Below are positions 738 through 8,478 of a stretch of 10,896 nucleotides of DNA, piece after piece. A model generated the notes under the pieces. That model worked only from the letters and a program-made list of their open reading frames with translations. It was not told the DNA's origin and made no database searches. A program made the translations under genes and the position numbers. Position 1 is the first letter of the stretch. Every line of letters begins with the position of its first letter. The stretch is from contig DBWH01000043.1 in the NCBI GenBank assembly GCA_002308595.1, forward strand, positions 1 to 10,896. Reading direction: 5' to 3'. The DNA comes from Mageeibacillus sp. UBA1243. Its GTDB lineage: Bacteria; Bacillota; Clostridia; UBA1212.

Positions 738-1490
738 TCAGAAGCCTTCGTATGCGTCTTCTGAAGGCTCAAATGAGGGCATCAGTTCCAGTTTGAATCT
801 GTTTATCCTGTTCAGCCTGTCAATGCGTTCTTTAGCCTCAGGATCGTCACAGACGCCCGTCCTGATATATCTGTCGAGTGTTTCGTAAGTAAAGCCAAGA
901 TTGTCCTCGTCTGTCTTTCCTGAAAGGCCGTCAGACGGTGCTTTGTAAACGAGCGCGTCGGGAAGTCCGAGAAGCTTTCCGAGCTCCCTTACTTCTGTTA
1001 CTGTGAGGTGCGACAGAGGGCTGAAATCGCCGACGGAATCGCCGTACCTTGTCGAGTAGCCGACGTAGTCCTCGGAGAGGTTGCACGTGTTTACCACGCG
1101 GCCGTTCACGCACTGTGAAACGTAGTAGAGTGTGCTCATTCTGATCCTTGGCGGCAGGTTGATCTCGGCCTGCCTTGTCGCCTCAAGCGCGTCAGGCACC
1201 GCGGCCTTGAGGGCCTTGACTGATTCGCCTATATTTACGACAAAATGTCTGATGCCAAGGTGATTTACGAGCATGTGCGCGGCCTCGATGTCGCTCTGAA
1301 CGCCGCAGGGCATAAGCACGCCGATGACATTCTCCCTTCCGAGAGCCTCAGCGCAGATTGCCGCCGCAACGGACGAGTCCTTGCCGCCGGAGATACCGAC
1401 GACCGCCTTGCAGCCCTTGCCGTTTTTTTCGAAAAAATCCCTGATCCAAACGACCAGTTCGTCTCTTACTTTTGAAATATCAAGCTTCAT
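738..1490 (-). CDS. nadE: NH3-dependent NAD+ synthetase
   Basis: Amidates nicotinic acid adenine dinucleotide to NAD+ using ATP, the last step of NAD synthesis, in the cytosol. The 250-aa protein is the short ammonia-using form with no N-terminal glutaminase (nitrilase) domain. The ATP-pyrophosphatase P-loop SGGKDSS is at residues 34-40. NLSEDYVGYSTRYGDSVGDF and, further on, KAPSDGLSGKTDEDNLGF are the family's substrate and ATP-binding signatures; the usual second motif reads KxPSADL-x-x-GQTDE, so it is well kept. The ATG at 1488-1490 overlaps the 3' end of the upstream 225-aa gene by 11 bp and has GAGG six bases upstream, which argues for translational coupling. It is one of two PP-loop (SGGKDS) enzymes in this gene run, the other being the ttcA-like gene. 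Confidence 0.96.
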   Translation of the reverse strand: MKLDISKVRDELVVWIRDFFEKNGKGCKAVVGISGGKDSSVAAAICAEALGRENVIGVLMPCGVQSDIEAAHMLVNHLGIRHFVVNIGESVKALKAAVPDALEATRQAEINLPPRIRMSTLYYVSQCVNGRVVNTCNLSEDYVGYSTRYGDSVGDFSPLSHLTVTEVRELGKLLGLPDALVYKAPSDGLSGKTDEDNLGFTYETLDRYIRTGVCDDPEAKERIDRLNRINRFKLELMPSFEPSEDAYEGF

Positions 1491-2157
1491 CGGATTCCTC
1501 CGTCATTCCGCGTATGTACGCCTCCGTACACGCCGCAAGCCGCGCCGGCACATTGCCGTCACAGTATTTTTCCGTAAGGTAGTAAAGCTCCGCCGCAAGG
1601 CGTGCAAAATTTCCGTTCTTTATCGTAAAAACAATCTTTTTATAGTTCTCGGGTGTCTCTTCACAGAGCTGGCTCAGTCCCGATAATAAAAGAGCCGCAA
1701 GTATCCTTGCCGGCCTGCATTTTGAAAAAAGATTGCAAAATCCGTCACCGCCGCATTCCGCGTCTTTTCCCTGCTTTTCAAAAGATGCGCGCATAAGCGC
1801 ATAAAAGATATAAAAGTCTTTCTTTTCAGATTTTTTTATAACGGTTTTTTTCGCGGCGCATGAGGAAGGATAAAGCCGCGCCGCGCCCTCCAAAGACGCG
1901 ATTTCCGTTATCTTTTTTGACAGAAAAGCTTCCGAAAAACAAAACTCCGCCGTATCGTCCTTTACCGCGCACCTGAAAGACTCAAGCCGGAATGAGTTTT
2001 CATTTTTACCGAGAAATGCGCAAAAATCAGAAACTGCTTCCTTCCGGCACCTTAGGTCGAGCACAAGGTCCGGCGCATCAGGGATGTCCTGTTCCCGCGC
2101 GGCATTTTTAGAGAGGCTCTTTCCCGGTATCGAAAGCTCAAGGCGCAGTTCGTTCAT
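1480..2157 (-). CDS. Unrecognised 225-aa protein, possible DALR-like C-terminus
   Basis: I do not recognise this family with confidence. The 225-aa soluble protein has no signal peptide and no TM segment. The first 100 residues look alpha/beta and contain several Cys (37, 46, 63, 73, 100). A Lys-rich linker at 103-113 precedes a helical C-terminal half. There, YALMRASFEK (119-128), ARILAALLLSGL (150-161) and RLAAELYYLTEKYC (186-199), then RLAAC (206-210), are spaced rather like the helices of the DALR anticodon-binding domain of arginyl-tRNA synthetase. This is a weak, by-eye resemblance. The gene starts in an ATGA overlap with the murI stop and has a strong GGAGG seven bases before the ATG, and its end overlaps nadE by 11 bp, so it is a genuine, coupled operon member. 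Its coding strand has more homopolymeric A runs than its neighbours. Confidence 0.85.
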   Translation of the reverse strand: MNELRLELSIPGKSLSKNAAREQDIPDAPDLVLDLRCRKEAVSDFCAFLGKNENSFRLESFRCAVKDDTAEFCFSEAFLSKKITEIASLEGAARLYPSSCAAKKTVIKKSEKKDFYIFYALMRASFEKQGKDAECGGDGFCNLFSKCRPARILAALLLSGLSQLCEETPENYKKIVFTIKNGNFARLAAELYYLTEKYCDGNVPARLAACTEAYIRGMTEESDEA

Positions 2158-2999: not shown

Positions 3000-4064
3000 T
3001 CAGATCGTGCGGCTGTTTTCTTTTTTGCTGAGAATTGCGAGGTCGACAAGCTCCGTGATGAGGTCCTTTATCGACAGTCCCTCGTTCTCCCACATCTTGG
3101 GGTACATGCTGATCGACGTGAAGCCGGGGATGGTGTTGATCTCGTTAAGATAAATCTCGCCGGTCTCCCTGTCCTTGAAAAAGTCTACCCTCGCAAGGCC
3201 CTCGCAGTCAAGCGCGATATATGCCCTGACGGCAAGCTTTTTAATAAGCTCCCTGTCAGCCTCGGAGATGTCTGCGGGTATTCTTGTCGAACTGGTCCCG
3301 TTGATGTATTTGTCGTCGTAGTCGTAAAACTCGCTTGTTGAAATAATCTCGCCGGGCGTCGCGGCCTTCGGCTCTCTGTTTCCGAGCACCGCGCACTCAA
3401 TTTCCCTTGCCGGTATGTATTTCTCGACAAGCACCTTTCTGTCGTACCTTGCGGCCTCGGTCACGCTGCCGCCAATGTCACTCTCCGCCGTCACCTTAAA
3501 AGCTCCGACGCTGGAGCCCGAATTTGACGGTTTCACAAAGCACGGATAGCCTATTTTTTCGGCAATTTCCTTCCTGATCGCGTCCATGTCGGCAAGGTCT
3601 CTTCTCTCAACCGTCACCGACGGAACGACAGGTATTCCCGCCTCTTTGAGGATGATCTTAGTGTAAACCTTGTCCATGCACACCGCCGACGAAAGTATGC
3701 CGGCGCCCACGAAAGGTTTTCCGAGCACCGAGAGCAGGCCCTGTATCGAGCCGTCCTCAGCCATGATTCCGTGCATGACCGGGAACACAACGTCGCACCG
3801 GTAGATTGTATCCACCGCGGGGGCAATGCCTCTCTTTTCTCCGTCCGGAACGGCCGCCCACTTTTCCGACACGATGCTCTCAACGTCAATATTGCCATTT
3901 TCGCCGGCCATATTGATGAAGTCGCCCTCTTTCGTGATGCCGCAGGCTTTCACCTCAAAACGGTCAAAGTCAATGTTTCTCAGTACGGTTCCCGCCGAAA
4001 TGCAGGATATTTCGTGTTCGGTCGACTGTCCGCCGAACATCACAAGCAGTTTAGTTTTTTTCAT
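3000..4064 (-). CDS. ddl: D-alanine--D-alanine ligase
   Basis: ATP-grasp enzyme that joins two D-Ala for the peptidoglycan pentapeptide terminus. With the start used here it has 354 aa. Motifs in order: GGQSTEHEIS (11-20, catalytic Glu16), MHGIMAEDGSIQG (97-109; the usual HGxxGEDG has Ala for one Gly), FVKPSNSGSSVG (176-187, ATP grasp), FYDYDDKY (246-253, omega loop), and NEINTIPGFTSISMYPK (307-323, Mg2+ and substrate binding). The Tyr-containing omega loop and SMYP favour true D-Ala-D-Ala activity over the D-Ala-D-Lac (VanA-type) activity. I chose the ATG at 4062-4064, not the upstream ATG at 4091, because family proteins begin MKK-x-x-hydrophobic-GG and GAGG lies six bases before it. It overlaps the hflX 3' end by 14 bp. 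Confidence 0.96.
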   Translation of the reverse strand: MKKTKLLVMFGGQSTEHEISCISAGTVLRNIDFDRFEVKACGITKEGDFINMAGENGNIDVESIVSEKWAAVPDGEKRGIAPAVDTIYRCDVVFPVMHGIMAEDGSIQGLLSVLGKPFVGAGILSSAVCMDKVYTKIILKEAGIPVVPSVTVERRDLADMDAIRKEIAEKIGYPCFVKPSNSGSSVGAFKVTAESDIGGSVTEAARYDRKVLVEKYIPAREIECAVLGNREPKAATPGEIISTSEFYDYDDKYINGTSSTRIPADISEADRELIKKLAVRAYIALDCEGLARVDFFKDRETGEIYLNEINTIPGFTSISMYPKMWENEGLSIKDLITELVDLAILSKKENSRTI

Positions 4065-5889
4065 CTTTTGCCTCGTATTTGGAAAAATCACTCTTCCAGT
4101 ATTTTACATCAATCTTTCCCCTGACGTAAACACCGTTTCCGGAAAAATCCTCAAAATCAATATTTCCGTTGTCGTGCAGGTAGGAAAGGGTTTTCCCGTC
4201 GGAATAGGGAATGAGCAGCGAGAAATCCTTCTCCGAAGCCGAAAAGAAGCCGATCACAGCCTCCTTGAGCTTGTCCATGCCCTCGCCCGTCTTTGTGCTG
4301 ATATAGTACGTGATTGCGTCTATGGGTCCCGTGTTGTCTGCCGCCAATTCGCTTGCGGGCAGAAGATCCATCTTGTTCACGACAACGTAGCAGGGCTTTC
4401 CGCCCGCTCCGAGCTCCTTGATGATCTCGTTTACGACCTCTATCTGATTGGCGGCATCGGGGTTGCTGCCGTCGACAACGTGAAGCAGCAGGTCCGCGTA
4501 CTTCAGCTCCTCGAGGGTCGATTTGAAAGCCTCCACAAGGTCGTGCGGCAGTTTCTTTATAAAGCCAACCGTGTCGATGATGAGGAAGTCCTTGTTGTCG
4601 TCCGTCACAAGGCGCCTGACCGAAGGGTCAAGTGTAGCAAAAAGCATGTTCTCGGCAAGCACGTCGCCGTTGCAGAGCGCGTTCAAAAGGCTCGATTTTC
4701 CGGCGTTTGTGTAGCCGACCACAGCAACCTGCGGTATCTCATTCTTCTTCCGCTCTTTCCTGAGCGTGTCTCTTACGGCCGAAACCTTCCTGAGCTCGTC
4801 CTCAAGGAACGAAATTCTGCGCTTAATGTAGTTTCTGTCGGCTGTGAGCTTGCTTTCGCCGGGGCCCCTTGTTCCGATGCCGCCGCCAAGCCTTGACAGC
4901 GCGATGCCCTTGCCGGTGAGCCTCGTCAGCCTGTATTTCTGCTGGGCCATTTCGACCTGAAGCCTGCCCTCGCGGGACTTTGCCCTCGCGGCGAAAATGT
5001 CAAGTATGAGAGTGGTCCTGTCAATGACCCTGAGACCCGTTGCGTCCTCAAGATTTCTCACGGTGCCCGCCGAAAGCTCGTCATCGACAATGAGAAGCGT
5101 TGCCGACAATGCCTGTGCCTTGAGTGAGATTTCGCGCGCAATGCCCTTGCCGATATAAAATCTCGGGTCGTGCGAAGGTCTCCTCTGCACAAACTCGCCT
5201 ACGACCTCAGCGCCCGCAGTCCTCGCAAGCTCTTTAAGTTCAAGGAGCGCCGTCTCGGGAGTCACCTTTTTCTCGTCCGCCGGAAGTATAACGCCGCAAA
5301 GAATCGCCTTTTCTGCGTCCTCCTCAAGCCTCTCGGGGAGCGCGTCGGCGGCCTCGCCGTCAATTCTCGCAAGCTCTTCAAAAAGCGCGTTGAACTGACC
5401 AACCCGCCAAACCGGCTCGGGCCCCATCGTCTCATACTCCGTAAACAGGCCCTCGCCGTCCCTTCTTAGAACGGTCACGGAGATGCCCGTTGCCCTCTCC
5501 TCGTCAACGTTTACACCTATAACGCCGCACGCGTCAAGCCGCAGCGACTTCAGTGAGCCTATGTCAACCTCTGACGGGAGCGACGCCCCGTTTGGATGCG
5601 TGTGCCAGAGTCTTATGCCTGAAAGCCTCTTGTCGCCTCTTCTTGTGTCAAGCAGGCCCTCGAGGTTCACGCTCTCCGAGTTTCCGACGCATATCGCCTC
5701 GACGCGGTTTTTGCGGTCAATGAGCGCCGCAAATTCGATGGCCGCTGAAGACGTTGCGAGCACGAGCGCGTCCCTTATTTCGACAGGCAGGAACTCACCC
5801 GGGGAATACACGTTCCCGATGAAACCGTCAAGGTATTCGAGCAGGTTCTTCCTCACCGAGGAGGTGTTCCCGTAAATCTTTCCCGTCAT
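4051..5889 (-). CDS. hflX: GTPase HflX with N-terminal JAMM/RadC-like domain
   Basis: HflX is a ribosome-binding GTPase that splits stalled 70S ribosomes. This 612-aa protein is about 180 residues longer than E. coli HflX. The HflX part starts near residue 196 (CGVILP), with the DPRFYIGKGI nucleotide-binding-domain motif at 241-250, a charged coiled coil at about 350-385, Walker A GYTNAGKSS (392-400), G3 DTVGF (439-443), and G4 NKMD (505-508). The extra N-terminus (1-170) carries a JAMM zinc-site pattern: Glu52 in IEFAALIDRKNR, then HTHP with His96 and His98, Ser106 and Asp109 (H-x-H-x10-D), as in RadC. The start is at 5887-5889, only 6 bp after the ttcA-like stop, with a weak ribosome site (AAGA-type), consistent with coupling. 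I recall similar long HflX proteins in Clostridia; the domain's role is unknown to me. Confidence 0.95.
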   Translation of the reverse strand: MTGKIYGNTSSVRKNLLEYLDGFIGNVYSPGEFLPVEIRDALVLATSSAAIEFAALIDRKNRVEAICVGNSESVNLEGLLDTRRGDKRLSGIRLWHTHPNGASLPSEVDIGSLKSLRLDACGVIGVNVDEERATGISVTVLRRDGEGLFTEYETMGPEPVWRVGQFNALFEELARIDGEAADALPERLEEDAEKAILCGVILPADEKKVTPETALLELKELARTAGAEVVGEFVQRRPSHDPRFYIGKGIAREISLKAQALSATLLIVDDELSAGTVRNLEDATGLRVIDRTTLILDIFAARAKSREGRLQVEMAQQKYRLTRLTGKGIALSRLGGGIGTRGPGESKLTADRNYIKRRISFLEDELRKVSAVRDTLRKERKKNEIPQVAVVGYTNAGKSSLLNALCNGDVLAENMLFATLDPSVRRLVTDDNKDFLIIDTVGFIKKLPHDLVEAFKSTLEELKYADLLLHVVDGSNPDAANQIEVVNEIIKELGAGGKPCYVVVNKMDLLPASELAADNTGPIDAITYYISTKTGEGMDKLKEAVIGFFSASEKDFSLLIPYSDGKTLSYLHDNGNIDFEDFSGNGVYVRGKIDVKYWKSDFSKYEAKDEKN

Positions 5890-8238: not shown

Positions 8239-8478
8239 TCAAAGCAGCTCGTACATCTCTCCCGCGTCATTCTTTTTCACGGTTTCCTGAACGCTCTTCA
8301 CACGGAATTTCACGGCGCCCTGGGCAAAAGCGATCTCGACAATGTCTCCGACCTTCACGTCGTAGCTCGCCTTCACGACACGCCCGTTCACGGATACTCT
8401 TCCTCCGTCGGCGGCGTCATTGGCGACAGTCCGTCTCTTTATTACCCTTGAAACCTTCAGATACTTGTCAATTCTCAT
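8239..8478 (-). CDS. rqcP: S4-domain ribosome quality-control protein RqcP
   Basis: A 79-aa, almost pure S4 RNA-binding domain: MRIDKYLKVSRVIKRRTVA (1-19), then RVSVNGRVVKASYDVKVGD (27-45). It closely resembles B. subtilis YabO/RqcP as I remember it, including the MRxDKxLKVSRxIKRRT start and the MYxxL ending. RqcP helps RqcH add poly-alanine tails to nascent chains on obstructed 60S-equivalent (50S) subunits. The order mazG then rqcP is the same as yabN-yabO in Bacillus, which supports the call over the related Hsp15. The start lies one base after the mazG stop (TGACATG), with AGGG about eight bases upstream, so translation is probably coupled. Confidence 0.93.
   Translation of the reverse strand: MRIDKYLKVSRVIKRRTVANDAADGGRVSVNGRVVKASYDVKVGDIVEIAFAQGAVKFRVKSVQETVKKNDAGEMYELL

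Follow-up and report, generated by a model that had tools for sequence, protein, structure and literature searches.

The hflX locus

The window, a stretch of 10,896 nucleotides from Mageeibacillus sp. UBA1243 analysed here as a whole, encodes on its minus strand (5889 to 4051) an HflX protein of 612 amino acids, taken from the list of open reading frames, which has an extension of about 190 residues ahead of the HflX core. The features of this gene are as follows, where rows refer to the 75 dereplicated Bacillota domains described below.

4051..5889, minus strand: hflX gene, JAMM-HflX fusion, 612 aa (open reading frame; TIGR03156 433.7 bits against a cut-off of 216.75; PF13167, PF16360 and PF01926 above cut-off)
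5341..5889, minus strand: N-terminal JAMM/MPN+ domain, residues 1-183
5734..5736, minus strand: Glu52, predicted catalytic glutamate (aligns on the RadC Glu; Glu in 73 of 75 rows)
5587..5604, minus strand: His96-Thr-His98-Pro-Asn-Gly, predicted zinc ligands (kept in 72 of 75 rows for His96 and in 73 of 75 for His98)
5563..5574, minus strand: Ser106-x2-Asp109, predicted oxyanion Ser and zinc-ligand Asp (of the 75 rows, 74 have a letter at the Ser position, all of them Ser, and 73 at the Asp position, all of them Asp)
5314..5340, minus strand: linker, residues 184-192 (residues 184-189 with pLDDT <50 in the full-length model, pTM 0.58)
4255..5307, minus strand: HflX core, residues 195-545, comprising ND1, the helical domain, the G domain and the start of the C-terminal part (TIGR03156 match 195-545)

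The TIGR03156 equivalog match, well above its curated cut-off, places the protein in HflX, and Pfam models found the HflX order kept, with GTP-bdg_N at residues 214-300, GTP-bdg_M at 302-380 and the G domain at 387-506. The start call is sound because close homologues start at the same place; upstream is a gene for a PP-loop protein, closest to TtcA, with its stop 6 bases ahead of the hflX start. In the full-length predicted model the JAMM domain stands apart, with residues 184-189 as a weak link, and its position is not fixed (pTM 0.58). Residues 1-183 are almost certainly a genuine JAMM/MPN+ metallohydrolase domain of a RadC-like branch; a short flexible linker connects it to an HflX that is ordinary in all other respects.

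Elsewhere in the window, the minus strand at 8239-8478 encodes a 79-aa S4-domain protein of Hsp15/RqcP-like type that adjoins a MazG gene and is separated from hflX by two genes. The sequence-only reading had called it RqcP; its best NCBIfam match is Hsp15 (8e-6, far below cut-off), which leaves RqcP as a plausible name. A 225-aa frame at 1480-2157 (minus strand), between a frame that is MurI-like by eye and an NAD synthase gene, had no match in Pfam or NCBIfam.

A JAMM/MPN+ domain related to RadC

Glu52, His96-x-His98, Ser106 and Asp109, noticed initially from the letters alone, were confirmed in the translation at those positions and with that spacing, so the window protein carries the E - HxH - x7 - S - x2 - D pattern of JAMM/MPN+ proteins. 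The form E-x30-60-HxH-x7-S-x2-D occurs once across the six frames of the window; shuffling the first 188 residues 200,000 times produced it in 5 cases, and a stricter form with HxHPxG in none.

Pfam models identified the domain weakly. Searched alone, it matched Prok-JAB (PF14464) at 7e-4 and 19.9 bits, below the curated cut-off of 25, and RadC (PF04002) at 0.065 and 13.6 bits, below the cut-off of 22.1. Among 15 diverse relatives, at E up to 1, Prok-JAB matched 10 (best 3.4e-6) and the RadC model 9 (best 5.3e-4). In PADLOC, 13 JAB models fell over the same residues (best E 0.0012). An alignment of 15 domain rows searched against the PDB at E up to 10 matched 20 sequences, of which 17 were JAMM/MPN proteins, all weakly (AMSH-like proteases at E 0.06, RadC at 1.2, AF2198 at 2.2), and the remaining three were an unrelated reductase. 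The single window sequence matched one unrelated PDB chain only (E 0.38), and matches of profile A2 were dominated by HflX and other GTPases, which made them uninformative on the JAMM domain.

The predicted structure has the MPN fold. With this fold as the Foldseek query, the first 38 among the 50 matches listed were MPN/JAMM proteins by title or recall, and by VIA the figure was at least 48 among the 50 matches listed, the titles of 2kks and 9is6 being undecisive. These matches include enzymes of deubiquitinase type, namely JAMM1 with SAMP2, Rpn11, AMSH and BubCD.

HMM-HMM comparison of the 15 domain rows with six RadC sequences gave 96% probability (E 4e-9) over 69 columns, compared to at most 0.8% for 20 column-shuffled RadC alignments, and the alignment set E52 on the RadC Glu, HTHPNG on HNHPSG and S..D on S..D. 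Searched against whole genomes, the domain profile found HflX first and RadC, weakly, second; three weak matches in a class-level survey (G294, G309 and G322) fell on RadC genes, and four weak matches fetched from a phylum-level survey (L171-L174) were RadC by sequence. The HMM-HMM match and the genome matches indicate common ancestry with the RadC (PF04002) JAMM domain, and the genome of the window has a separate RadC as well (G000:C59). The JAMM reading and its closeness to RadC, both proposed from sequence, are thus supported by the predicted fold, by the profiles and by RadC as the second family found in genomes. The window domain found no match in viral contigs; a relative's domain had four weak partial matches there.

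The motif might also be read as having arisen by chance in an N-terminal extension of the ordinary kind, an idea to which the Pfam scores, all under cut-off, lend something, but the predicted fold, the HMM-HMM match and the conservation described below refute it, and we give it practically no weight.

The domain can be compared to several known families. RadC has its own N-terminal helix-hairpin-helix part; the domain here is followed by HflX. The JAMM domain of RadC (PDB 2qlc) has HNHPSG in place of HTHPNG, and the domain here is HflX-fused and scores below the Pfam RadC cut-off. JAMM1 of P. furiosus and AF2198 are free-standing, unlike the fused domain, to which they have 13-16% identity; the JAMM1 structure 5lda, by its title, includes the ubiquitin-like SAMP2. 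The deubiquitinases Rpn11, CSN5 and AMSH have the fold and the JAMM motif in common with our domain but have no HflX part, and are eukaryotic, ubiquitin-directed and furnished with larger insertions.

Distribution of the fusion

JAMM-HflX fusion is a widespread but minority form. In a survey of the class, the domain profile matched 48 of 148 genomes, two of these solely on RadC, leaving 46 with a fusion; each had one strong domain match, and an HflX match was in the same reading frame in all 46. HflX itself was above its cut-off in 109 of the 148. In a survey of the phylum, 102 of 299 genomes were matched, 54 of them at E <= 2e-11 in frames of 522-702 residues, the rest being weak matches in frames of 215-335 residues; the HflX part was in the same frame for 52 of the 54 (by a G-domain motif, found in 45 of 46 loci, or by HflX listing), with G033 and G050 counted as fusions by frame length alone. 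HflX was above cut-off in 228 of these 299 genomes, and the window's genome was included in both censuses. The architecture had been described from sequence as lineage-wide, and it is indeed present across the lineage, but its occurrence is patchy. Named relatives with the fusion, among the best 80 of 285 confirmed loci, include Acetivibrio, Thermoclostridium, Pelosinus, Phascolarctobacterium and Christensenellaceae.

Many matches of the domain search were short, labelled "partial" or accompanied by HflX domains. On long contigs, three proteins of 247-321 aa (P0131, P0140 and P0151) have a JAMM domain and no full HflX G domain; they could be split genes or truly free-standing. Some HflX frames are longer still, at 740-830 aa (L016, L021, L023 and L029), with the G domain at 208-240, which puts their extra length at the C-terminal end.

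Frames of at least 90 residues around 81 loci (the best 80 of 285 plus the window) revealed no conserved partner gene. Apart from HflX and two opposite-strand families at the hflX position, which were taken as antisense frames, the commonest neighbour family was present in 16 of the 81. This bears on whether the domain could act on a non-ribosomal protein, for instance a small ubiquitin-like one, as a deconjugase or processing peptidase, with the fusion serving to regulate HflX more than rescue: the structural matches to JAMM1 with SAMP2, Rpn11, AMSH and BubCD speak for such an activity, but a conserved neighbour is missing from the 81 loci, and we regard it as improbable. NFACT_N of RqcH type (136 of 148 class genomes) and RadC (135 of 148) offered no discrimination because they are near-universal among these genomes.

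A tree of the HflX core made by a quick method from 92 rows (72 with an intact domain, 6 with a degenerate one and 14 without it) had domain-less forms interspersed among domain-bearing ones, with four changes. Gain and loss are not separable in this tree because its deep forks are weak, long branches meet and the root is not known; loss of the domain from a long ancestor is possible.

Conservation and loss of the metal site

In the fused domains, every one of which was read, the five JAMM residues are intact in 45 of 46 from the class and 47 of 54 from the phylum. The eight exceptions comprise four EFRSD, all from one family, and one each of NYFS-, KYTDA, QVH-- and EYYLT; each has at least two of the five residues changed, which fits a metal site that is either kept or given up. 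This census is independent of the loci found with the HT pattern, but it is profile-based and misses decayed copies. Four long HflX frames that the profile had not matched were fetched: L224 (G150) proved to be a decayed, site-less copy, and no JAMM domain was seen in L223, L225 or L226. Bacillota HflX proteins that kept the domain and lost the metal site are L166-L168 and L170 (f89), L162 and L163 (f46), L169 (f96), L213 (f151) and L224 (f88).

By conservation, the five residues take 2nd, 3rd, 8th, 9th and 11th place among the 167 columns of the 75 dereplicated Bacillota domains, whereas five random columns would all fall within the first 11 with a probability of 4.5e-7. The homologues therefore rule out chance. 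Of the rows used, 42 of the 75 for conservation and 42 of the 92 in the tree come from the best-80 loci. These loci have a bias towards H96, because the search patterns include H96 and T97 (the conserved HT). The sequence-only reading had proposed profile searches, site conservation among homologues and the predicted fold as its checks, and none of the three went against it: MPN/JAB matches exist, free variation of the site is not seen in most genomes, and the predicted fold is MPN.

A broader set of 361 domain rows (359 returned proteins and the window) divided into 146 with EHHSD, 212 with Gln for Glu but HxH and Asp kept, and 3 that were other or partial. The set is redundant. Its Desulfovibrio-type Gln rows were retrieved with the window as query and most Myxococcota rows with P0053 as seed, and each of these two groups is redundant. 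The Gln forms are carried by HflX of Myxococcota and Desulfovibrio (P0043, P0053 and P0241-P0359). R59, G69, R93 and D119 are common to the active and Gln forms, and Arg59, Arg88 and Arg93 are highly conserved.

Predicted role on the ribosome

Knowledge of HflX as a splitting factor comes chiefly from E. coli, Listeria and mycobacteria, whose proteins share ND1, the helical domain, the G domain and the C-terminal part with ours. The E. coli hflX gene (1281 bp) is too short for an extra JAMM domain. A parallel is the mycobacterial HflX extension, which, in the part of the review PMC12493154 available to us, is described in the same position, directly ahead of ND1, where it contacts uL16 and helix 38, extends to the H69-H71 junction and disorders rRNA helices H68-H71. 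It is 39-58 aa long, compared to a folded domain of 183 aa here, and JAMM residues go unmentioned in that part of the text (PMC12493154). The same part reports extended HflX in several Clostridium and Paenibacillus species, and describes no JAMM domain (PMC12493154).

In the mechanism that we propose, GTP-bound HflX would dock on a stalled or idle 70S ribosome and split it, and the JAMM domain would come to rest on the intersubunit face of the 50S subunit, near uL16, helix 38 and H69-H71. We place it there because it directly precedes ND1, like the mycobacterial extension as set out in the available part of PMC12493154. A zinc-activated water of the domain could then cut a peptide or isopeptide bond in a substrate exposed solely on split or stalled subunits, for example a bound factor, the tail of a ribosomal protein or what is left of a nascent chain. 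We give this combination of a JAMM domain with HflX-delivered cutting on the ribosome, the best explanation overall, about an even chance. Zinc binding, peptidase activity and a role in rescue are conjectures; hydrolysis by the domain is rather probable, since the catalytic Glu and Ser have been retained, and that the substrate is ribosome-bound we rate at a little short of even.

A related idea is that the JAMM domain replaces Prp in Bacillota. Prp is a cysteine peptidase that trims the N-terminus of bL27, and both bL27 and uL16 are situated near the position expected for the domain. Prp was nonetheless present in 35 of the 46 fusion-bearing genomes and in 74 of the 102 others, and the window's genome has both; since Prp is about as frequent with the fusion as without it, we rejected replacement as very improbable.

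The domain might instead be a zinc-stabilised docking or rRNA-binding module, not an enzyme, which assists HflX in holding or distorting the 50S in the manner of the mycobacterial extension; the latter's disordering of H68-H71, in the available part of PMC12493154, is consistent with this, as are the Gln substitution with HxH and Asp kept in 212 of 361 rows of the redundant set, the persistence of the domain after loss of its site in eight genomes of the two censuses and one found later, and the high conservation of Arg59, Arg88 and Arg93. In the Bacillota forms, however, the catalytic Glu and Ser match the zinc ligands in conservation, and docking alone needs neither, so we consider a purely docking role possible but unlikely. 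The Gln and site-lost lineages show that in them the domain either serves a second, non-catalytic purpose or is being lost. We tentatively suggest that Bacillota HflX carries a live metallopeptidase, active only once docked on the split 50S, that would cut a ribosome-bound peptide or conjugate there and so make splitting and proteolytic clearance one step, and that the Gln version of Myxococcota and Desulfovibrio may bind without cutting.

The JAMM-HflX fusion is not named in the titles and openings of abstracts listed from the open-access literature that was searched, and the word HflX is absent from PMC1779556. The fusion is real and has a conserved active site; the case for its identity is strong, and its function is now a well-posed question. 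HflX in 54 of 299 sampled genomes of the phylum carries what mostly looks like an intact protease-type active site, and if this site cuts, then the rescue of stalled ribosomes has a proteolytic step in these bacteria, which we know from no other bacterium. The RadC-type JAMM fold, with an unclear role in RadC itself, gains a setting in translation, and the natural Glu-to-Gln and site-lost forms provide ready controls.
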